NCBI GenBank assembly: GCA_021648145.1
Contig: JAKITI010000003.1
Span: 1-64,000 of the forward strand
DNA length: 64,000 bases
Reading direction: 5' to 3'
Origin: Gammaproteobacteria bacterium
Lineage (GTDB): Bacteria > Pseudomonadota > Gammaproteobacteria > JAADGQ01
Position numbers and translations under genes: made by a program. Within the stretch, counting starts at the first letter, position 1; every line of letters begins with the position of its first letter. Shown here piece by piece: positions 5,034-60,457 of this stretch. The notes beneath the pieces were generated by a model, which saw nothing but the letters and a program-made list of their open reading frames with translations, was not told the origin of the DNA and ran no database searches.

Positions 5034-5452
5034 TGTTGCCCCTGAGCAGTGATGACGATATGGCGACTGCCGCCATAATTTCTATGTTCACAAAGGTATA
5101 TTCCTTGCCATGTGCCCAGATTGAGTCTGCCATTGGTGATCGGTATCATCAGGCTGTTGCCCAGTATGCTGGATTTCAGATGAGCGGGAAGGTCATCAGG
5201 GCCTTCATCGGTGTGTAGATAATAGGGTTCGTTTTCTGCAACGGCACGACTAAAGTAGCTCTCAAAATCCTGCCGTACTGTCGGGTCAGCATTTTCGTTG
5301 ATTGTCAGCGAAGCGGAAGTATGTTTGATAAAAATATGAATCAAACCAATACTGAAATTTTTCAGTTCTGGAAGTTCACCCGTTATTTCATCTGTAATGA
5401 GATGAAAGCCTCGGGGGCGCGCTTTTAAATGGATCTCTTTTTGTAGCCACAT
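5030..5452 (-). CDS. YjbQ family protein (UPF0047; secondary thiamine-phosphate synthase type)
   Basis: This 140-residue soluble protein belongs to the YjbQ/UPF0047 family, some members of which have weak thiamine-phosphate synthase activity in vitro; the physiological role is unsettled. Family marks are HLITDEITGEL, the conserved HTSASLTINENADP with its central His, DEGPDDLPAHLKSS, and the C-terminal LGTWQGIYLCEHRN. An in-frame GTG at 5488 would extend the gene by 12 residues, but the family's usual MWLQKEI start at 5452 is preferred. It overlaps the downstream aldolase start by four bases. A divergent flavoprotein gene begins about 85 bases away. Confidence 0.88.
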   Translation of the reverse strand: MWLQKEIHLKARPRGFHLITDEITGELPELKNFSIGLIHIFIKHTSASLTINENADPTVRQDFESYFSRAVAENEPYYLHTDEGPDDLPAHLKSSILGNSLMIPITNGRLNLGTWQGIYLCEHRNYGGSRHIVITAQGQQ

Positions 5453-5536
5453 CGCTGTTTTTCTCAAGCCGTTTTGATATGGCGACACTTTAACATAGCG
5501 CTGTACAATGGCGGTTTCTTTGTAATAGGGTTTTCC

Positions 5537-6718
5537 ATGAAATCACCAGACGTTATCATCATCGGTGCAGGTGCAGCGGGTTTAATGTGCGCCATTGAAT
5601 CAGGCAAACGTGGGCGTTCGGTGCTGATGTTGGATCAAGGTAATAAACCAGGGCGCAAAATTTTGATGTCTGGAGGAGGGCGTTGCAATTTCACTAATTA
5701 TGAAGTGAGTGCGGAACATTACCTTTCTCATAATCCCCACTTTTGTAAGTCTGCATTAAGCCGCTTTTCTCAGTGGGATTTTCTGGCTTTGATTTATGAT
5801 TATCAAATTCCTTTTCATGAGCGTGATCACGGTCAGCTATTTTGTGATAACAGTGCCAAAGATATTCTCAACATGTTGTTGGCCGAAAATAAAAAAGCAG
5901 GCGTGGAAACTCAGTTAAAAACTGAAATTAATAAAGTTAATAAACTGGATAATGGTCACTTTACTTTAAAAACATCACGAGGGGATTTTCTGTGTAAATC
6001 GCTCGTTATTGCTACGGGAGGGCTCTCTATTCCCTCCATGGGATCCTCGCCCTTTGGCTACAAAATTGCTGAGAAGTTTGGAATTAAAATTCAGCCTACT
6101 CAGGCAGGTCTAGTGCCTTTCACCCTGCAACCAGAAGATAAAGCACGTTACTCGGCTTTGACGGGTATTGCTGTAGACAGTGTAGTGACGAATGCGTGTG
6201 CCAGTTTTCGAGAAAATGTTCTGTTTACTCACCGTGGTTTGAGTGGCCCGGCAATTTTGCAGGTATCTTCTTTCTGGAGATCGGGTGAGTGGATTGAAAT
6301 TAATTTGCTCCCGAATTTGGGTTTGTATGAGGGTTTAAAAAAAGCACAGAAGGCGCACCCTAATCAGCAGATTAAAACCTACCTGGCCAAGCATTTACCG
6401 AAGCGTTTAGTGACTGCATTTTTGAGTAGGGAGCTGGCCGATAAAATAGTGGCTGATACATCGAATGTACTGCTTCAACAGATCGCTGATACTTTTCATT
6501 GCTGGAAGATCAAACCGAATGGCACCGAAGGTTATCGAACAGCAGAAGTCACAATTGGTGGTGTAGATTGTAATGCAATTTCATCAAAGACAATGGAAGC
6601 CAATAATGTACCTGGGCTCTATTTTATTGGTGAGGTGATGGATGTGACAGGTTGGTTGGGCGGATATAACTTTCAATGGGCATGGTCATCAGGGTGGTGT
6701 GCAGGGCAGTATGTTTAA
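5537..6718 (+). CDS. HI0933/BaiN-type FAD-dependent oxidoreductase
   Basis: This 393-residue flavoprotein carries the N-terminal Rossmann dinucleotide motif (VIIIGAGAAGLMCAIESGKR), the second family motif NKPGRKILMSGGGRCNFTN, and a C-terminal FAD segment with AEVTIGGVD, PGLYFIGEVMDVTGWLGGYN and FQWAWSSGW. These are diagnostic of the HI0933 family (E. coli YhiN and clostridial BaiN). The physiological substrate in most bacteria is not known. An in-frame ATG lies 63 bases upstream, but it would add a tail absent from the family and run into the yjbQ promoter region, so 5537 is chosen. It lies 36 bases upstream of epmB, possibly in the same transcript. Confidence 0.9.
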   Translation: MKSPDVIIIGAGAAGLMCAIESGKRGRSVLMLDQGNKPGRKILMSGGGRCNFTNYEVSAEHYLSHNPHFCKSALSRFSQWDFLALIYDYQIPFHERDHGQLFCDNSAKDILNMLLAENKKAGVETQLKTEINKVNKLDNGHFTLKTSRGDFLCKSLVIATGGLSIPSMGSSPFGYKIAEKFGIKIQPTQAGLVPFTLQPEDKARYSALTGIAVDSVVTNACASFRENVLFTHRGLSGPAILQVSSFWRSGEWIEINLLPNLGLYEGLKKAQKAHPNQQIKTYLAKHLPKRLVTAFLSRELADKIVADTSNVLLQQIADTFHCWKIKPNGTEGYRTAEVTIGGVDCNAISSKTMEANNVPGLYFIGEVMDVTGWLGGYNFQWAWSSGWCAGQYV

Positions 6719-52064: not shown

Positions 52065-53768
52065 ATGGATATGAAATGGAATAAGTTAGGCTTGTTATGG
52101 CAAATGATGATCCCTGTGTTTGCTGTTTTTTTTATTGGTATTATTGTGACTGTATCGCTTATTCCTGGGCAGATTGAGCGCAATGTGATTGAAACGGCGA
52201 TACAATCATCAGAGCAGACCGTTCAGCAGTTCAAAACACTGCGTAAATATTATGCCGACTATGTCGTTCAACCTGTTAAGGGCAGTGGTGATATCAGTGT
52301 GGCTATTGATCATAAGCAGAACAATAAAGCCATTCCACTTCCAGCGACGATGATTCATGATTTAAGTGAACTGTCTGCAGGTGAAGGTGTGACTGTAAAA
52401 CTTTACAGCGATTTTCCTTTTCCAAATCGGGCATCACGCCAGCTCGAAGCGTTTGAATCAGATGCCTGGAGTGCCATCACTCGTAACCCAGATGAAACCT
52501 ATAGTAAACGAGATGTTATTGACGGCAAGCAGGTGCTTCGAGTTGCCATTGCAGACAAAATGGCTAGCAAAGTCTGTGTAGGTTGTCATAACAGTCATCC
52601 ACAAACACCTAAAAATAACTGGCAGCTGGGGGATGTGCGCGGCATCCTTGAGGTCACGACCGTCATTGATGACCAACTCTCTTCTGGAGCACTTATAAGT
52701 AAAGAGGTTTTACTGTTATTGCTTGGAGTTCTGGCGATTTCGATGCTTGCAATATATTTTGCCTATAAAATGACAATTGATCGGCGTTTGAGTGAAATAA
52801 ACCGAGCCATGAGCAGCTTGGCACAAGGGTATAGTGATCTTGATAGTCGGATGGATAGCTCTGGTAATGATGAAATCAGTATATTGGCTAAAAATTTCAA
52901 CAGCTTTATAAGCAAACTTCAAGAGCTGATTCATGGAGTAGCAAATTCGAGCTCTAGTGTAGAGATTGCTGCGAGTGAAATGTCTGATTTGGCTAATCAA
53001 TCCAATCAAAAAATTTCACAGCAAAAAAATGAAACGGATCAAGTCACCTTTGCGGTAGAAGAGATGGCAACGGCTGTTCAGGAGGTCGCAAGTAACGCGG
53101 CGACCGCAGAGAGTGCAGCGAGTAGAGCGCATGATGAAGCCGTAAATGGACAGGCTGTCGTTGCAAAAACAATCGCTTCAATTAATTTGTTGGCTGGTGA
53201 AGTGGAAAAAGCCTCTGATGTGATAAAAACGCTTGAAACAGAGAGTGAGTCAATTGGTTCTGTGTTGGATGTAATAAAGGGCATTGCTGAGCAAACGAAT
53301 CTGTTAGCGCTGAATGCTGCAATTGAAGCCGCACGTGCGGGAGAGCAAGGACGAGGGTTTGCTGTGGTGGCCGAAGAAGTTCGAACATTGGCGAGCCGTA
53401 CACAAGAATCAACGCTTGAAATACAAGATATGATTGAGCGTATTCAGGCCAGCGCAAGAAGTGCTGTAAGTGTGATGAATGGTGGAAGTTCACAAGCAGG
53501 TGAGAGTGTGCAGCAGGTGGCGATGGCTGAAGTGTCGCTAAAAGCCATTATGAACGTTATTAATGAAATTCATGAAGTTAACGCAGGAACTGCAAGTGCT
53601 GCAGAGCAGCAGAGTGCGACTGCGGAGCAAATTAAAAACAGTATTGTCGCAATCGGTGATATTGCAGGACAAGCGACTATGATGGCAGAGAAAACTGCAC
53701 AAGGCGGTGGGAAATTGGTTGATTTAACAAAGGAGCTTAATACAAAATTTGACCACTTCAAGTCATAG
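52065..53768 (+). CDS. Chemoreceptor (MCP) with a Tll0287/DUF3365-like c-haem sensor domain
   Basis: This 567-residue membrane chemoreceptor has a first helix (about 11-33), a periplasmic domain (34-210), a second helix (about 214-234), a HAMP domain and a cytoplasmic methyl-accepting domain with the CheA/CheW tip ([20 protein letters not shown] and [18 protein letters not shown]). The periplasmic part has the Tll0287/DUF3365 look ([16 protein letters not shown]) and a CVGCH c-type haem attachment motif at 171-175. It should therefore carry covalent haem and sense redox state, O2, NO or CO; the ligand is inferred. There is no C-terminal methylation-enzyme pentapeptide. Its end overlaps the convergent hemerythrin gene by 11 bases. 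Confidence 0.9.
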
Positions 53769-54156
53769 AGTCGAACCGCTGTATAAATTGAGCGGTGATG
53801 GAATCCATTGTATCAACATGTAGATAAAACCAGGGTGTGACAGTATCAGAAATGTATTTTTCCAAGGCTTCTCTGTCATGCCTGTTGTCCCAGTCAATGA
53901 CAGCACTTTTCAGTGAATCTATAACCTGATCATGTTCACCCTTATGCATTGGGTATGGTGGAAAACTGATACGTTGCATCTCACACTCTTCATGTGAAAA
54001 ATGTTCACAGGTATGCTCAACTAGTTTAGTTAGAAGTTCACTTATTATTTTATTGGAATCATTTTTCAATGCTGTATTGAGCTGGGTTAATTGCTCAACG
54101 AATTCAGCATGGTCTTTGTTCATAAAATCAATAGCGACAGTGACTGGAAGCTGCAT
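53758..54156 (-). CDS. Bacteriohemerythrin
   Basis: This soluble protein of about 132 residues is a single-domain hemerythrin, a di-iron O2-binding fold also used for O2 delivery or NO handling. All seven expected ligands are visible when counted from the ATG at 54156: His16, His52 and Glu56 (HFSHE), His71 and His75 (HKGEH), His113 and Asp118 (HVDTMD). The start has AGG eight bases upstream; an in-frame extension to 54234 would add a non-family tail. It is divergent from the truncated haemoglobin gene, with candidate operators in between, and convergent with the haem chemoreceptor. Confidence 0.93.
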
Positions 54157-54193
54157 ATAGGTAACCTGGAATTTGTTTTTACTGTAGATTATT

Positions 54194-54225
54194 TTAGATA
54201 TACATCTAATTTTTAGTTGGGTCAA
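54194..54225 (-). promoter_or_regulatory. Hemerythrin promoter overlapped by an inverted repeat
   Basis: On the minus strand TTGACC (54225-54220) and TATATC (54202-54197) are 17 bases apart, a good sigma-70 promoter about 40 bases upstream of the hemerythrin ATG. A perfect dyad, TTAGAT-4-ATCTAA (54194-54209), covers the -10 element and contains AGATGTAT, the core of an NsrR half-site. Repressor binding here would block transcription. Confidence 0.5.
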
Positions 54226-54251
54226 GGTTGACATTTTTTCATTGTAATAAA

Positions 54252-54379: not shown

Positions 54380-54763
54380 ATGGGTGGAGAAATGAGTAAC
54401 AAAAGTTTGTTTGAAAAATTGGGTGGTGAAGCTGCGGTTGATGCAGCAGTTGATATTTTTTATCGTAAAGTTCTTGGTGATGACAGAATCAGTCATTGGT
54501 TCGAAGGGACTGATATGGAAAAACAGGCCGTTAAGCAAAAAGCTTTTCTGACCTATGCTTTTGGTGGCCCTAATAATTATACAGGAATGGATATGCGTAA
54601 AGGGCATGCTCATCTGGTAGAAAAAGGCTTGGGTGATAGTGATTTTGACGCGGTTGTTGAGCTTCTTGGAGCAACATTGAAGGAGCTGGGTGTTGCGGAT
54701 GATCTCATTGCAGAAGTTGCTGCAACGGCTGAAACAACACGTAAAGATGTATTAGGCCGGTAA
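54380..54763 (+). CDS. Group I truncated haemoglobin
   Basis: The 127-residue protein is a complete 2-on-2 globin of group I (TrHbN/GlbN type), a family linked to NO dioxygenation and O2 binding. It shows LFEKLGGEAAVDAAVDIFY with Tyr28 at position B10, KQKAFLTYAFGGPNNYTGMD, and the proximal His76 in MRKGHAHLVEKGL, followed by the G and H helices. A second ATG at 54392 is a possible start. It is followed 21 bases later by a flavin/iron-sulphur reductase gene, probably its electron donor, and preceded by an NsrR-like operator. Confidence 0.94.
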   Translation: MGGEMSNKSLFEKLGGEAAVDAAVDIFYRKVLGDDRISHWFEGTDMEKQAVKQKAFLTYAFGGPNNYTGMDMRKGHAHLVEKGLGDSDFDAVVELLGATLKELGVADDLIAEVAATAETTRKDVLGR

Positions 54764-54784: not shown

Positions 54785-55753
54785 ATGTCTAGTGTAAGTT
54801 ATGACGGTCAGGTTTATGAAGTTCTTGATGGTGAGTCTGTTCTTCAATGTTTACATCGCAATAGTGTGGCGATTCCCTCATCATGTGGGAATGGTATTTG
54901 CCAAAGCTGCTTGATGCGTGCAACGGAGGGTATGCCGCCTGAAAGTTCACAAAAAAATCTGAAAAAAAGTTTGAAAGAGAGTGGTTATTTTCTTGCCTGT
55001 ATCTGCAAACCTGAAGGTGACCTTGAGGTCACTTTGGCTGGCGATGAAGTCTTTCATCGAACAGCGGTTCGTATTGTTGATAAATATCAAATGAATGGCC
55101 AAATTTTAAGGTTGCGTTTGGAGTGCCTTGAAGCGTTTGAGCACAAAGCGGGGCAGTTTATTAACTTACATCGACCCGATGGTTTGACACGTAGCTACTC
55201 TATTGCAACTTCACTGCCAGATAATATGCTGGAACTTCATGTCGAATATTTGCCAAATGGTAAAATGAGCGCCTGGATTCATGATGAGTTACAGGTGGGT
55301 GATCTACTGGAAATTGATGGGCCTCATGGCGATTGTTATTATTCACCCGATGATCAAGAACAAAATCTGCTACTGATTGGTACGGGATCAGGGTTGGCTC
55401 CATTAGTGGGTATTCTTCACGATGCGTTGGCACAAGGGCACCGAGGTCATATTCACCTGTTTCATGGAGTGATTGATGTCAGCAGGCTTTATATGGTTGA
55501 TGAATTGTGCCAGTTAGCCGATGCACATAAAAATGTTTTTTATACACGATGCATTTCTGGGGATGTTGTACCCGAGGATTGTTATGCTGGGTTTGCCAAT
55601 GCTGCGGCACTAGAGCAGTACACCAGTTTGACAGGTTGGCGACTGTTCCTTTGTGGTCATCCAGATATGGTGAAAGATAGCAGGAAAAAAGCTTTTCTTG
55701 CAGGCGCTTCATTGCAAGAAATTTTTAGTGATCCGTTTGAGTTTAGTCATTAA
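54785..55753 (+). CDS. 2Fe-2S ferredoxin-FAD-NAD(P)H oxidoreductase, probable globin reductase
   Basis: The 322-residue protein is a three-part reductase: a plant-type 2Fe-2S domain (about 1-90; ligands in SSCGNGICQSCL and a fourth Cys in YFLACICKP), an FAD-binding barrel (about 92-190; RSYSIATS and the downstream GKMSAWIH), and an NAD(P)-binding domain (about 195-320; LIGTGSGLAPLVGIL and FLCGHPDMV). This layout is known from phenol and toluate-type oxygenase reductases, but no oxygenase is near. With the truncated haemoglobin 21 bases upstream, it most likely re-reduces that globin; this pairing is inferred. Confidence 0.88.
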   Translation: MSSVSYDGQVYEVLDGESVLQCLHRNSVAIPSSCGNGICQSCLMRATEGMPPESSQKNLKKSLKESGYFLACICKPEGDLEVTLAGDEVFHRTAVRIVDKYQMNGQILRLRLECLEAFEHKAGQFINLHRPDGLTRSYSIATSLPDNMLELHVEYLPNGKMSAWIHDELQVGDLLEIDGPHGDCYYSPDDQEQNLLLIGTGSGLAPLVGILHDALAQGHRGHIHLFHGVIDVSRLYMVDELCQLADAHKNVFYTRCISGDVVPEDCYAGFANAAALEQYTSLTGWRLFLCGHPDMVKDSRKKAFLAGASLQEIFSDPFEFSH

Positions 55754-56901
55754 TTTACACGTAGCTCACGAATTACATCTGTATGTGCCAATATTCCGAC
55801 CAAACGCTGTTCATCGTTCAGTATGGGAATATGACGAATTCCTTTCTCTTTGAAAATTGAAAAAGCATGGGCAACAGGTTCGTTTTCTTGCAAAGTAATC
55901 ACAGGCGATGTCATCAACTGCCCTACCACTTCAGGTTTAATTGAGGTCAGTTCGCCCATCTGTTTGGTCACTATTTTTAGGCGCTCCTCAATGCTTTTTT
56001 TATGATATTTATCGGCCTCTTTTATGAAATCACAGGCAGTGATGATGCCACTGATTCGTCCAGATTTATCAATCACTGGAATGCTACGTATTTTGTGTTC
56101 TTGCATGAGCCTCCATGCTTCATCCAGACTACTGCCAAACTCTACTGAAATAACAGGGTGAGTCATAATATCCTTGCAAGCCTTCGTTCCCAAATTGCGT
56201 TTATGAGCGAGCAGAGTTGCATTTGTATAAATATTGTTTAAATCTGTAATGGAAACATCTATATAAGCGTTGATCTCTTGCAGCGCCTTGTTTAAATCAT
56301 CTTTTGAAAAAGGCAGCAGGTTTGGCAAGTCACTTTCTTTGCTCTCTTCGTCATCAAAAACAAAGGTTAACTCTTTTGTTTTACGTCTCTTGGCGAGTAT
56401 CAGGCGTGTCAACCAGACTGCCACGGCCATAATTAACACATTCAGGCCAACAGGCACGAGTACGTAAAGATACCCCAAAGCATGAATTTGATCACCACCA
56501 ACGACAGCAACCAATGCAGCTGCGCCTCCTGGAGGGTGTAAACAGCTCAATTCATGCATCACAAAAATAGCGAGCCCCACAGCTAAAGCACTGGCTAGAA
56601 ACAGATCAGGAATCCATTGAGCACAGGTAACTCCCACAATGGCTGACACCAAGTGCCCGCCTACAAATGGCCAAGGCTGAGTTAATTGGCTATGTGGCGC
56701 TGCATAGAGTAGTACTGCGGCGGCTCCCATTGAAGCGACTACAAAAGGTAATCCAGCATCACCTACAAAGTGATGGCTAACCCATGTGACAAGACCAATG
56801 CCAATAATGGCACCTAATGAAGATAAGAACACTTCATCCTGGGATTGCCTGGCTGGTATTTCGCCAAAAACAAATTGTTTTAACCTTATTAGAAGATCCA
56901 A
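55750..56901 (-). CDS. HPP-family membrane protein with two CBS domains
   Basis: The 383-residue protein has an N-terminal HPP domain with about four membrane helices (about 27-175), including the namesake motif in SCLHPPGGAAALVAVVGG, and a cytoplasmic tail with two CBS domains (about 240-300 and 320-380; DIMTHPVISVEFGSSLDEAW and LMTSPVITLQENEPVAHAFS). HPP proteins of cyanobacteria and plant plastids transport nitrite, and CBS pairs usually sense adenine nucleotides, so nucleotide-gated nitrite or anion transport is a reasonable guess. The start appears to be a TTG behind TAGGCC. Its stop overlaps the end of the convergent reductase gene by four bases. Confidence 0.85.
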   Translation of the reverse strand: MDLLIRLKQFVFGEIPARQSQDEVFLSSLGAIIGIGLVTWVSHHFVGDAGLPFVVASMGAAAVLLYAAPHSQLTQPWPFVGGHLVSAIVGVTCAQWIPDLFLASALAVGLAIFVMHELSCLHPPGGAAALVAVVGGDQIHALGYLYVLVPVGLNVLIMAVAVWLTRLILAKRRKTKELTFVFDDEESKESDLPNLLPFSKDDLNKALQEINAYIDVSITDLNNIYTNATLLAHKRNLGTKACKDIMTHPVISVEFGSSLDEAWRLMQEHKIRSIPVIDKSGRISGIITACDFIKEADKYHKKSIEERLKIVTKQMGELTSIKPEVVGQLMTSPVITLQENEPVAHAFSIFKEKGIRHIPILNDEQRLVGILAHTDVIRELRVN

Positions 56902-56988
56902 TTGATGGCCTATACATTATGATTGGTTAAGTTATCGTCATTTGTTGCCGCAATTAAAACTATATTTAGAATAAATTGGGTGGAATTG

Positions 56989-58257
56989 GTGGCAAATTTT
57001 TTTATTAAGCCTGCCAGGATGGCGAATGCAGCATTTAAGTTTTTATCTAAGGTCGTACTGTTAGCAGCAATAATGCTGGGAAGTACGGCAACCTTGAGCT
57101 ATTTGGTTAATAATCAATACCAGCAACAAATTAATATATTACAGAAAGATAACGCATTAGAAAAAGTTCAGGAAATTGAGAAAAAGCGCTTGGATTTACT
57201 TCTGTTTTCGGTGTTGATTTTTGCTCTGTTTATTTACATATTGACCGGTTATTACTCGGGTACTATGCGAGCTATTAATGATCTGAAAAGAAATAGTCAG
57301 GCGATTGTGGATGGTGAATTGTCACTGCATCTTAAATCAACAACGCATGATGAATTGGGTTCGTTATATGGCAGTTTAGAGACAATTTCTACAGAGTTTG
57401 AACGTGCCATCAGTGAAATTACAGAGTCAGCTGCTGAAGTGCAAAGTGCTGCATCTGAACTGTCAATAGCCGCTAAACGAGAAGTTAAAAACTCACAGCA
57501 ACAGGTGCAATCTGTTTCTGCAATTACTTTGGCTATTGAGGCGGCTGCACAAAATAGCCTTGAAATCGCAGGTCAGGCAAAAGATGTTAAAACGGCGGTT
57601 GATCATACTGATCAGCTTGCGGGTGATGGTGGGGAAGTGGTTATTAAATCTATTGAAAGTATTCAGCAGACATTTGAATCTGTTGAAAATTCTGAGCGTT
57701 TATTAACAACGCTGGGAGAGCGCTCTAATGAAATCAGCAAAATTATTGAAGTGATTCAGGAAATTGCAGCACAGACCAATTTGCTTGCATTGAATGCAGC
57801 GATTGAAGCGGCGCGTGCGGGTGAGCATGGTCGTGGATTTGCTGTAGTTTCTGACGAGGTGCGTTCCTTATCTCAGCGAACCCATCAGGCAACGGCTCAA
57901 ATTACCGGCATGGTGAGTACAATTCAGGAAGAAATTTCGAATAATATTTCCAGTATGGAAGCAGTTCATAATAATGTTGTGAGAGGTGTTGAGTGGGGTA
58001 ATAAGGCAGGAGATCATTTGCAGCAAATTAGAATAAATGCGATGAATACGTCTAATGTGATGCATGAAATTACTGAAGCAATATTACAACAGAGCAATAA
58101 AACTCAAGAGATTGCGAAGCATATTGAAAATATTAACCAAGCCGCTATTGAAAATGGTGCAGCATTTGATGAAACATCAACAACAGCAGATTATTTGCAA
58201 ACACTTTCTCAGCACATGGTTGATGTTATTCCAAATAATAAATCGTCGCATTCATAA
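56989..58257 (+). CDS. Minimal chemoreceptor (MCP) with almost no periplasmic domain
   Basis: This roughly 422-residue chemoreceptor has two membrane helices separated by only about 30 residues (first [19 protein letters not shown]; second [18 protein letters not shown]), then HAMP ([20 protein letters not shown]) and a full signalling domain with [20 protein letters not shown] and [18 protein letters not shown]. It therefore lacks a normal ligand-binding domain and may take its signal from a partner; the NIT-like membrane protein gene begins 40 bases downstream. The start is uncertain: GTG 56989 behind GGGTGG is chosen, TTG 56923 is longer and ATG 57019 shorter. Confidence 0.85.
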
Positions 58258-58297
58258 ATTCAGAAGTTGTCATGATTACTAAGTGGGGAAAGCAGTA

Positions 58298-59254
58298 ATG
58301 ATTTTAACTCTGTCCATAATAGTTGTTAGTGCCATTTTGGCGTTAACTATTACAACGATTCATTGTAAGAGGTCAGCCTTATTTATTCGGCATCAGCGCC
58401 AAGGTATTGGCGCTATTGGTGAAATTCGTAAGTTGATTGAGTTCATGCCTCAGCATCGAGGCATGTCTAACTCACTGCTTCTAGGTGATGACTCTTTTAA
58501 AGAAAAAATTATTGAAGTTCAAAATAAGGTAGACAAAAGTATTCAGGAAATTGATAAAACGGGGGATATTGAAGGAAAGTTACTGCGTTGGAAGATAATC
58601 AAAGCCGACTGGGTCTCATTAAAAAATTGTTATTCGGGTTTGTCAGCATCTAAAAGTTTTCAACAACATTCAGATTTGATCAATGAAGTGCTCTATTTAA
58701 TTGTTGATGTTGCAAACGATTCGGGGCTTTACTTTCATGAAGATAAAAAGTGCCGGGATTTGACCGTCGGGCTATTTTATTATTTGCCGATGATGATTGA
58801 ATTTGTTGCGCGTGCTCGTGGTGTGGGAGCCGGTGTTGCAGCACAAAACAGAGTAATCATATCTGCACGTATTAAACTTCAGTTTTTACATAAGCGGGTC
58901 AATAAAAGTTTAGAATCTATTCATTCAACGCTGGCTCAATCATTGGCGGATACCAGTTATCAAGGTCAATCACCTGAAGTACTCATTACTGAAGGCCTTC
59001 AGCCTACCTATTTCTTTATGCACATTCTGCAGGAAAATTTATTAGGCGAACGTGGAGTTGCGATCAGTTCCACTGAATACTTTGACGCAGGTACATCGGC
59101 AATATCAACGAGCTTTGAGCTGTTTGATACGTTAATACCTATTGTGAATGACTATTCAGATAAGGATGAAGTGAAACTGAAGCGGCAGATCAAATGGCTC
59201 TGGTTTTTTGGTTTTATTATCACTGGGGCAACTGCATTTTTTGTACTGATTTGA
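58298..59254 (+). CDS. Membrane protein with NIT-like (nitrate/nitrite-sensing) domain and no output domain
   Basis: The 318-residue protein has one membrane helix at each end (about 2-20 and 298-317) around a large helical periplasmic part. That part resembles the NIT domain of bacterial nitrate/nitrite receptors: the first conserved region is IRKLIEFMPQHRGMSNSLLL and the second MIEFVARARGVGAGVAAQNR, each with the typical Arg-Gly. NIT domains normally precede a HAMP-MCP, kinase or ANTAR module, but here nothing follows the second helix. The ATG at 58298 is preferred to GTG 58283 because GGGGAA lies at the right distance. It follows the minimal chemoreceptor by 40 bases, suggesting one functional unit. 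Confidence 0.75.
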   Translation: MILTLSIIVVSAILALTITTIHCKRSALFIRHQRQGIGAIGEIRKLIEFMPQHRGMSNSLLLGDDSFKEKIIEVQNKVDKSIQEIDKTGDIEGKLLRWKIIKADWVSLKNCYSGLSASKSFQQHSDLINEVLYLIVDVANDSGLYFHEDKKCRDLTVGLFYYLPMMIEFVARARGVGAGVAAQNRVIISARIKLQFLHKRVNKSLESIHSTLAQSLADTSYQGQSPEVLITEGLQPTYFFMHILQENLLGERGVAISSTEYFDAGTSAISTSFELFDTLIPIVNDYSDKDEVKLKRQIKWLWFFGFIITGATAFFVLI

Positions 59255-59260
59255 TCGTTC

Positions 59261-60457
59261 CTATCCCAAGCGTCCATCTACGCGTCGCATGACCAAAACC
59301 GGCAGATAGATCAAGAAAAATAGAGCAAATGAACTGATCCATAATACTTGTGATATGCCGATCCATATTGTGTAGTGATCAGAAAATAATAGCGGAAAGA
59401 TAACTCTGACGATTGACCCTGTGAGCAATAGCAATAAGCTCGGAACTAATAGCTTGGGTGGCTCAGCAATATTTCTGCCTGTATGGCCCAATGAGACGCG
59501 AGCCATCATGCCCATCGTCATCATGCCAATTCCTCCCATCGCAAATGCGTGTATCGTAATGCTGGCCGTTAAATCTAAAAACAGAGCTAATGCGGTTAAT
59601 AAAAAACCAAAAATAAGAAATATATAGGCGATATAAAGAATCCAGAGCAGTGGTTTTTTCCAGATTCCAACGGTGTACCATCCCCATAGCCTAATGCTAT
59701 GTAGCACAAATAAAGTGGTAGCAAGTAAAGCAGTGATGGTGTCGAGTGCGGTAAAACTGGCAGTGATCCAGAATATAAAAAATAGCACTAGGCTTGAAAC
59801 ATCCAGCCATTGCCAATTTTTAATTTGAGCAGGGTCATCCACTCCTTTTTCAATGAAAAATGGAATCACTCGCCGACCTAACATGAGAATCAGACCAATA
59901 ACAAGGTAGAGGCCGGATAACAAACCTTGTTGTACACCATTTTCAATCACTCCAGCATTGCCAAGATAAAAAAGAATATTGCTTAAAAGTATCAGAATAA
60001 GTTTGGCGATAATGCCTAGTTGCTTGCGACTATTGGCTTTGATGATGGGATAAGTGAGTGCGACAATTAAAACCAATAAAAACAGGCAGTCTAGCACAGC
60101 AATAATCTCAATGGGTGTTTGGGTTAAAGCTAAAATTCGAGTGACTGCCCAGAGTGTAAAAAGCCCCGCTAGCTGATAGCCTTGCAGGGTTTGAATGCCT
60201 GTCCAGTTTTTAACCGCTGTCAGTAAAAAACCTGCAATGACGGCAAGGCTATAACCATAAATCATTTCATGGGCATGCCAGGTGGTTGCGGGTAAACCGG
60301 CAAGCCCAAGGTTCCAGCCCAGTAGGTAGACTCCCAGCCATACCGTCATGGCTAAAATAGAAAATGCAGCAGCCCCCAGAAAAAATGGACGGAAGCCTAA
60401 ACTAAATAGAGCAAACTTGGGAATATTGCGTGCGGGTGGTTCAATATTAATAAGCAT
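59261..60457 (-). CDS. nnrS: NnrS family haem-copper membrane protein
   Basis: NnrS is a polytopic membrane protein that protects against nitrosative stress and is controlled by NO regulators in denitrifiers and Vibrio. The 398-residue protein has about twelve hydrophobic segments. Family marks are the N-terminal LFSLGFRPFFLGAAAFSILA, the metal-binding TWHAHEMIYGYSLAVIAGFL followed by LTAVKNWTG, RVIPFFIEKGV, HAFAMGGIGMMTMGMMARVS and LGHTGR. Its stop lies six bases from the convergent NIT-like gene. No clear NsrR or FNR-type site was found in the 146 bases upstream. Confidence 0.92.
   Translation of the reverse strand: MLINIEPPARNIPKFALFSLGFRPFFLGAAAFSILAMTVWLGVYLLGWNLGLAGLPATTWHAHEMIYGYSLAVIAGFLLTAVKNWTGIQTLQGYQLAGLFTLWAVTRILALTQTPIEIIAVLDCLFLLVLIVALTYPIIKANSRKQLGIIAKLILILLSNILFYLGNAGVIENGVQQGLLSGLYLVIGLILMLGRRVIPFFIEKGVDDPAQIKNWQWLDVSSLVLFFIFWITASFTALDTITALLATTLFVLHSIRLWGWYTVGIWKKPLLWILYIAYIFLIFGFLLTALALFLDLTASITIHAFAMGGIGMMTMGMMARVSLGHTGRNIAEPPKLLVPSLLLLLTGSIVRVIFPLLFSDHYTIWIGISQVLWISSFALFFLIYLPVLVMRRVDGRLG

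Follow-up and report, generated by a model that had tools for sequence, protein, structure and literature searches.

Two adjacent genes of the window, as we call the whole 64,000-nucleotide stretch of DNA analysed here, would encode a single bipartite chemoreceptor composed of an MCP transducer and a separate, cytoplasm-facing NIT sensor, following the logic of CetA/CetB or Aer with NIT in the place of PAS. We put the probability of this reading, drawn from sequence comparisons, at roughly three in four. The initial annotation had already proposed that the MCP and the NIT protein form a split chemoreceptor, and this part of it is supported by the recurrence of the pair in 17 genomes; its placement of the NIT domain in the periplasm is not.

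The gene pair in the window

The features of the locus are collected in Table 1. The first gene encodes an MCP whose signalling domain was matched by PF00015 (MCPsignal) with 140.9 bits and an E-value of 4.7e-41 (residues 222-384). Hydropathy bore out the earlier description of an MCP with about 30 residues between its two membrane helices, the measured loop being about 27 residues long. At about 27-30 residues this loop is too small for a sensor domain, and in most of the other pairs described below it counts about 7-12 residues, which makes a CetA-like hairpin. The HAMP profile matched the window MCP weakly (22.6 bits, E 1.3e-4, Pfam cut-off 25) and matched the short MCP of the sister species (L005) weakly as well, again below cut-off, while 8 of the 10 short MCPs of one Pfam scan and 2 more scanned separately gave no HAMP match. 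An N-terminal leader motif, F..P...L, is common to short MCPs and fused NIT-MCPs. Scanning of positions 56700-59500 for promoters and terminators returned no more than was found in shuffled sequences.

The second gene, a NIT-like gene 40 bases downstream of the MCP as first described, has a ribosome-site-like GGGGA upstream of its ATG. Its product carries a hydrophobic helix at both ends and no domain beyond the second, in agreement with the earlier picture of a NIT-like protein flanked by two membrane helices and ending there. Taken alone, the window protein falls under the Pfam NIT cut-off (18.8 bits against 24.9, E 0.0023), but the profile does recognise its family: each of the 15 split NITs scanned gave a match (E up to 0.05, best 4.8e-8), several of them exceeding the cut-off with 29.5, 30.9 and 30.8 bits. 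Positions invariant in the alignment of 15 split NITs include H53, R54, G55, W105, H124, E168 and R174 (window protein numbering). Neither PAS nor ANTAR was matched in the window protein by Pfam. The top PDB match of its fold model was NasR (4AKK, Z 12.4 over 248 residues), a score that unrelated helical bundles can reach and that comes from a weak model (pLDDT 56, two sequences); sequence-profile searches of the PDB gave chance matches only.

Other signalling genes were seen in the same genome. A second MCP of the window (52065-53768, + strand) contains a CVGCH c-heme motif within a Tll0287/DUF3365 domain; this family has been reported to be NO-sensor-like when fused to signalling modules. 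A hemerythrin-domain protein (53758-54234, - strand) lies between this c-heme MCP and the truncated globin. Contig C17 carries a fused NIT-like MCP whose C-terminal domain is a hemerythrin (L004, 34-2508, - strand).

Table 1. Features of the MCP-NIT locus in the window (positions from the first letter of the stretch).
Feature	Position	Strand	Basis or remark
Truncated globin	54380..54763	+	PF01152, E 4.4e-17
2Fe-2S/FAD/NAD reductase	54785..55753	+	Pfam
HPP-CBS membrane protein, nitrite-transporter family	55750..56901	-	PF04982, E 8.9e-48
Sensor-less MCP transducer	56989..58257	+	422 aa, GTG start; MCPsignal and membrane hairpin
MCP membrane helix 1	57052..57108	+	Hydropathy, residues 22-40
Loop joining MCP helices, about 27-30 residues	57109..57189	+	Hydropathy
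MCP membrane helix 2	57190..57246	+	Hydropathy, residues 68-86
HAMP-like segment, below Pfam cut-off	57265..57390	+	Residues 93-134
MCP signalling domain	57652..58140	+	MCPsignal match
Intergenic gap, 40 bases	58258..58297	+	Between MCP stop and NIT-like start
Stand-alone NIT-like sensor protein	58298..59254	+	318 aa, ATG start; Pfam NIT, fold model
NIT protein membrane helix 1, N-terminus predicted outside	58298..58357	+	Hydropathy, charge
Basic cluster CKRSALFIRHQRQ after helix 1, positive-inside signal	58364..58402	+	Charge
NIT-like domain, predicted cytoplasmic	58442..58951	+	PF08376, residues 49-218
NIT protein membrane helix 2, C-terminus predicted outside	59195..59251	+	Basic cluster KLKRQIK precedes
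NnrS	59261..60457	-	PF05940, E 2.3e-98

Recurrence and joint divergence of the pair

Profile searches covered 369 and 368 genomes of the class in two overlapping samples, 398 genomes of the phylum and three orders. Matches were mostly fused NIT-MCPs, with a minority of stand-alone NITs, whose neighbourhoods we read. The MCP-NIT pair was found in 17 genomes of 10 families, all of one class: G000 (the window), G002, G337, G370, G372, G377, G078, G204, G306, G133, G699, G603, G685, G744, G519, G066 and G263. This count includes G372, whose MCP is split over two frames in the assembly, and G370, where the contig ends within the MCP. In the GC-rich genomes G066 and G263 the pairs escaped the gene caller and were recovered by three-frame reading, so further pairs may hide in long open frames and 17 is a lower bound. 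Scanning genome contigs with the single NIT protein returned the sister species only, and no relative was present in the viral contigs or plasmids searched. CheW-domain genes were found in all 15 pair genomes searched (all but G066 and G263). At one locus (L051, 3409-4652, - strand) the MCP of the pair is in two pieces, a membrane part of 172 aa and a signalling part of 239 aa, either through an assembly error or as a real split.

For 17 of the 18 stand-alone membrane-anchored NITs that we read, the gene immediately upstream, on the same strand, encodes a sensor-less MCP. NIT-like homologues of this type thus rarely occur without such a neighbour, which supports the idea of a split receptor. 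The pair is conserved and tightly spaced: the two genes are separated by 40 bases in the window and by at most 24 elsewhere (counted from an internal start in G519), and in 7 of the 17 they overlap by 4 or 7 bases. Outside the 17 of 18 stand G337:C16 (L036/L020), G209 (L041) and G482 (L066), which were taken for broken or fused genes, L041 less securely, and seven NIT-only proteins lacking an N-terminal anchor in the match (G047, G242, G373, G374, G375, G377:C85 and G547).

A fused NIT-MCP gene recently broken by frameshift, decay or assembly error might also leave two neighbouring genes, and the MCP leader F..P...L does resemble that of fused NIT-MCPs, among which broken genes exist (L036, L066). 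The conservation of the pair in 10 families refutes this; in addition, the order MCP then NIT is the reverse of that in fused proteins, both proteins carry helices of their own and the fused NITs form a separate group. We regard recent breakage as having next to no chance of being correct.

The eighteenth anchored NIT, in G161 (L042), is followed by an ANTAR response regulator instead of an MCP. There (5134-6614, + strand) the anchored NIT gene overlaps the separate ANTAR response regulator gene, with a molybdopterin oxidoreductase and ABC transport genes as neighbours; L042 can be described as a NasR-like system split in two. Most of the seven unanchored NIT-only proteins adjoin ABC transport or nitrate-type assimilation genes (G373 was not resolved by the gene caller). 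Soluble NIT-like proteins without an output domain were seen beside nitrate-type ABC transport genes in L045 (4968-5882, - strand), L063 (4562-5500, + strand), L065 (4155-5096, + strand) and L044 (5329-6264, + strand). The ANTAR-paired homologue and the soluble proteins beside nitrate-type transporter genes would both fit a NIT protein that is a membrane-bound regulator of something else, for example gene expression, with the MCP merely an operon partner. We consider this unlikely: the same type of MCP, devoid of a sensor of its own, occupies the same position beside 17 of the 18 anchored NITs, and the two proteins diverge together.

This joint divergence was measured on 15 of the 17 pairs, the set also used for the Pfam NIT scan and the trees. 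Distances between NITs and between MCPs were correlated with a Mantel r of 0.94 over 15 pairs, and of 0.82 over the 11 pairs left after removal of near-copies and of L059, a long branch, none of 5000 permutations being as high in either case; part of this correlation reflects shared species history. The MCP and the NIT protein of the pair thus diverge in step. Both trees gave, in the main, the same groups: A (the window, L005, L052, L037, L051 and L053), B (L038-L040) and C (L043 and L054-L057). In the NIT tree a branch supported at 100/100 separates all fused rows from the split, soluble and ANTAR-paired NITs. The tree was read as unrooted and gives no direction of change between fused and split forms.

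Membrane orientation of the NIT domain

The initial annotation had taken the NIT domain to be periplasmic, and the distribution of charges around the membrane helices points the other way. In all 17 split NITs, helix 1 starts at residue 1-6; basic residues are absent ahead of it and number 3-7 in the 20 residues that follow. The K/R count thus rose across helix 1 in all 17 split NITs but in none of 23 fused NIT-MCPs, where the bias was reversed by net charge in 23 of 23 (four proteins without helix 1 were dropped from the count). The difference between the first 15 pairs and the fused NIT-MCPs gave a Mann-Whitney p of 2e-7. Around helix 2, present in eight of the split NITs, K/R counts were 2-5 higher before than after in all eight. 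Seven further long proteins showed an excess after helix 1 in two cases by count and in none by net charge; one of these two, L060, was later identified as the split NIT of G066.

Cysteine counts, an independent check, separated the two forms in a similar manner. Cysteine is scarce in many exported domains; of 17 split NIT domains 16 contain it, at 1.1 per 100 residues, compared to 1 of 27 fused ones (0.03), two fused rows with a missing motif having been skipped and L060 left out; the single cysteine-bearing fused row, L050, is a partial sequence from the end of a contig. L042, where an anchored NIT of the same type is paired with ANTAR, a cytoplasmic output, points the same way. Charge bias and cysteine content, which are statistical evidence, together make a cytoplasmic position of the split NIT domain very probable. 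They also carry a caution: two flanking helices alone are no ground for calling NIT proteins periplasmic.

A split chemoreceptor whose NIT domains dimerise in the periplasm, read an external ligand and drive the MCP hairpin across the membrane would agree with the fused NIT-MCP homologues, one of them in the same genome, in which NIT is flanked by two membrane helices whose charges signal a periplasmic position. Given the opposite charge bias and cysteine content of the split NITs, and the 100/100 branch that sets the fused rows off from all split, ANTAR-paired and soluble NITs, we judge this arrangement very improbable and retain a receptor with its sensor inside the cell.

A proposed two-protein receptor and its possible signal

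With a sensor that is very probably cytoplasmic, CetA/CetB or Aer is a better analogy than a periplasmic sensor. We propose that an N-terminal helix, joined by a C-terminal one in about half of the family, holds the NIT protein in the membrane beside the hairpin of the MCP, the termini lying outside and the NIT domain inside the cell. A change in internal nitrate, nitrite or a related nitrogen oxide would shift the helical NIT domain. Contacts between helices and close to the membrane would carry this shift to the MCP, into its HAMP-like or adaptor region, and the MCP would then bias CheA/CheW signalling. Swimming would in this way be steered by the internal level of the ligand, which in this genome may be supplied by the adjoining HPP transporter.

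Other receptors share parts of this plan. Sensory rhodopsin-Htr complexes have a separate membrane sensor that drives a transducer, the sensor being unrelated to NIT and the signal being light. Fused NIT-MCPs (PA4520 type; L003, L004) have a homologous NIT domain and a similar MCP leader, but they are single polypeptides, periplasmic in their NIT domain by charge and cysteine counts, on a separate branch of the NIT tree. NasR, a NIT-ANTAR antiterminator and the best structure match of our weak model, resembles the pair in its cytoplasmic NIT domain and differs from it in being soluble, fused to ANTAR and in control of RNA rather than taxis. McpN, a chemoreceptor with a PilJ domain, mediates nitrate taxis by direct binding and, unlike the pair, is a single protein with a periplasmic sensor domain (PMC6381276).

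The nearest known system is, by analogy, the bipartite energy-taxis receptor CetA/CetB, known from Campylobacter jejuni and, as CetBA2, from Magnetospirillum gryphiswaldense. According to PMC2628428 and PMC12442639, CetA consists of a membrane hairpin, HAMP and a signalling domain, CetB is a membrane-bound cytoplasmic PAS protein, and deletion of CetA2 or of CetB2 gives the same phenotype. As in our pair, the two genes are adjacent (overlapping in M. gryphiswaldense), the transducer has a membrane hairpin without a sensor and a separate sensor lies on the cytoplasmic side. Unlike CetB, the sensor of the pair is NIT, not FAD-PAS, and is integral to the membrane; the MCP gene precedes the sensor gene, and the likely signal would be nitrogen oxides rather than redox state. 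Since its partner has no PAS and HAMP is weak or missing, the pair would work like CetA/CetB but is not taken as a member, and the weakness or absence of HAMP would place the relay point elsewhere than in CetA.

As to the ligand, nitrate, nitrite or an N-oxide is only suggested by the neighbouring genes. The truncated globin was found near 8 of the 17 pairs and the HPP gene near 7, all in groups A and B, the two clades closest to this genome, and the 2Fe-2S/FAD/NAD reductase beside 5, compared to none of 20 fused NIT-MCP loci for each of the three genes, several of these control loci being shortened by contig ends (6-11 kb). Neither globin nor HPP was present in the 8 soluble or ANTAR-paired NIT loci examined. 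NnrS is kept at the locus of the sister species (L005), and nitrogen-oxide neighbours were absent beside the group C pairs and those of G066 and G263. The same bipartite receptor could also respond to NO, to redox state, to another small anion or to HPP transport activity, a choice to which we give serious weight, if rather less than an even chance. In tests of PA4520, a chemoreceptor with a periplasmic NIT domain, no binding of nitrate or nitrite was seen (PMC6381276), and globin, reductase, NnrS and a c-heme MCP of the NO-sensor type are among the neighbours of the pair; on the other side, the NIT domain of NasR responds to nitrate and nitrite (PMC7496416), and HPP proteins of cyanobacteria and chloroplasts are nitrite transporters (PMC7438415, citing Maeda 2014).

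A NIT-based bipartite chemoreceptor seems not to have been described before. None was found in titles or abstract openings of the open-licence papers searched, a scope that takes in few subscription journals, and in the papers covered the sensor of bipartite bacterial chemoreceptors is PAS. We tentatively suggest, at somewhat under even odds, an undescribed class of two-protein chemoreceptors that carry NIT on the cytoplasmic side of the membrane, the other side from that in their fused relatives, and that would direct swimming by internal nitrate or nitrite (or NO), read directly beside a nitrite importer, instead of by an external ligand or respiratory redox state. If this is true, the two-protein receptor plan is more general and able to carry a sensor other than PAS, and bacteria would have a route to steer by their internal nitrogen-oxide pool. 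The same domain on opposite sides of the membrane, fused in one case and split in the other, would then offer a natural comparison of how sensor input reaches an MCP.
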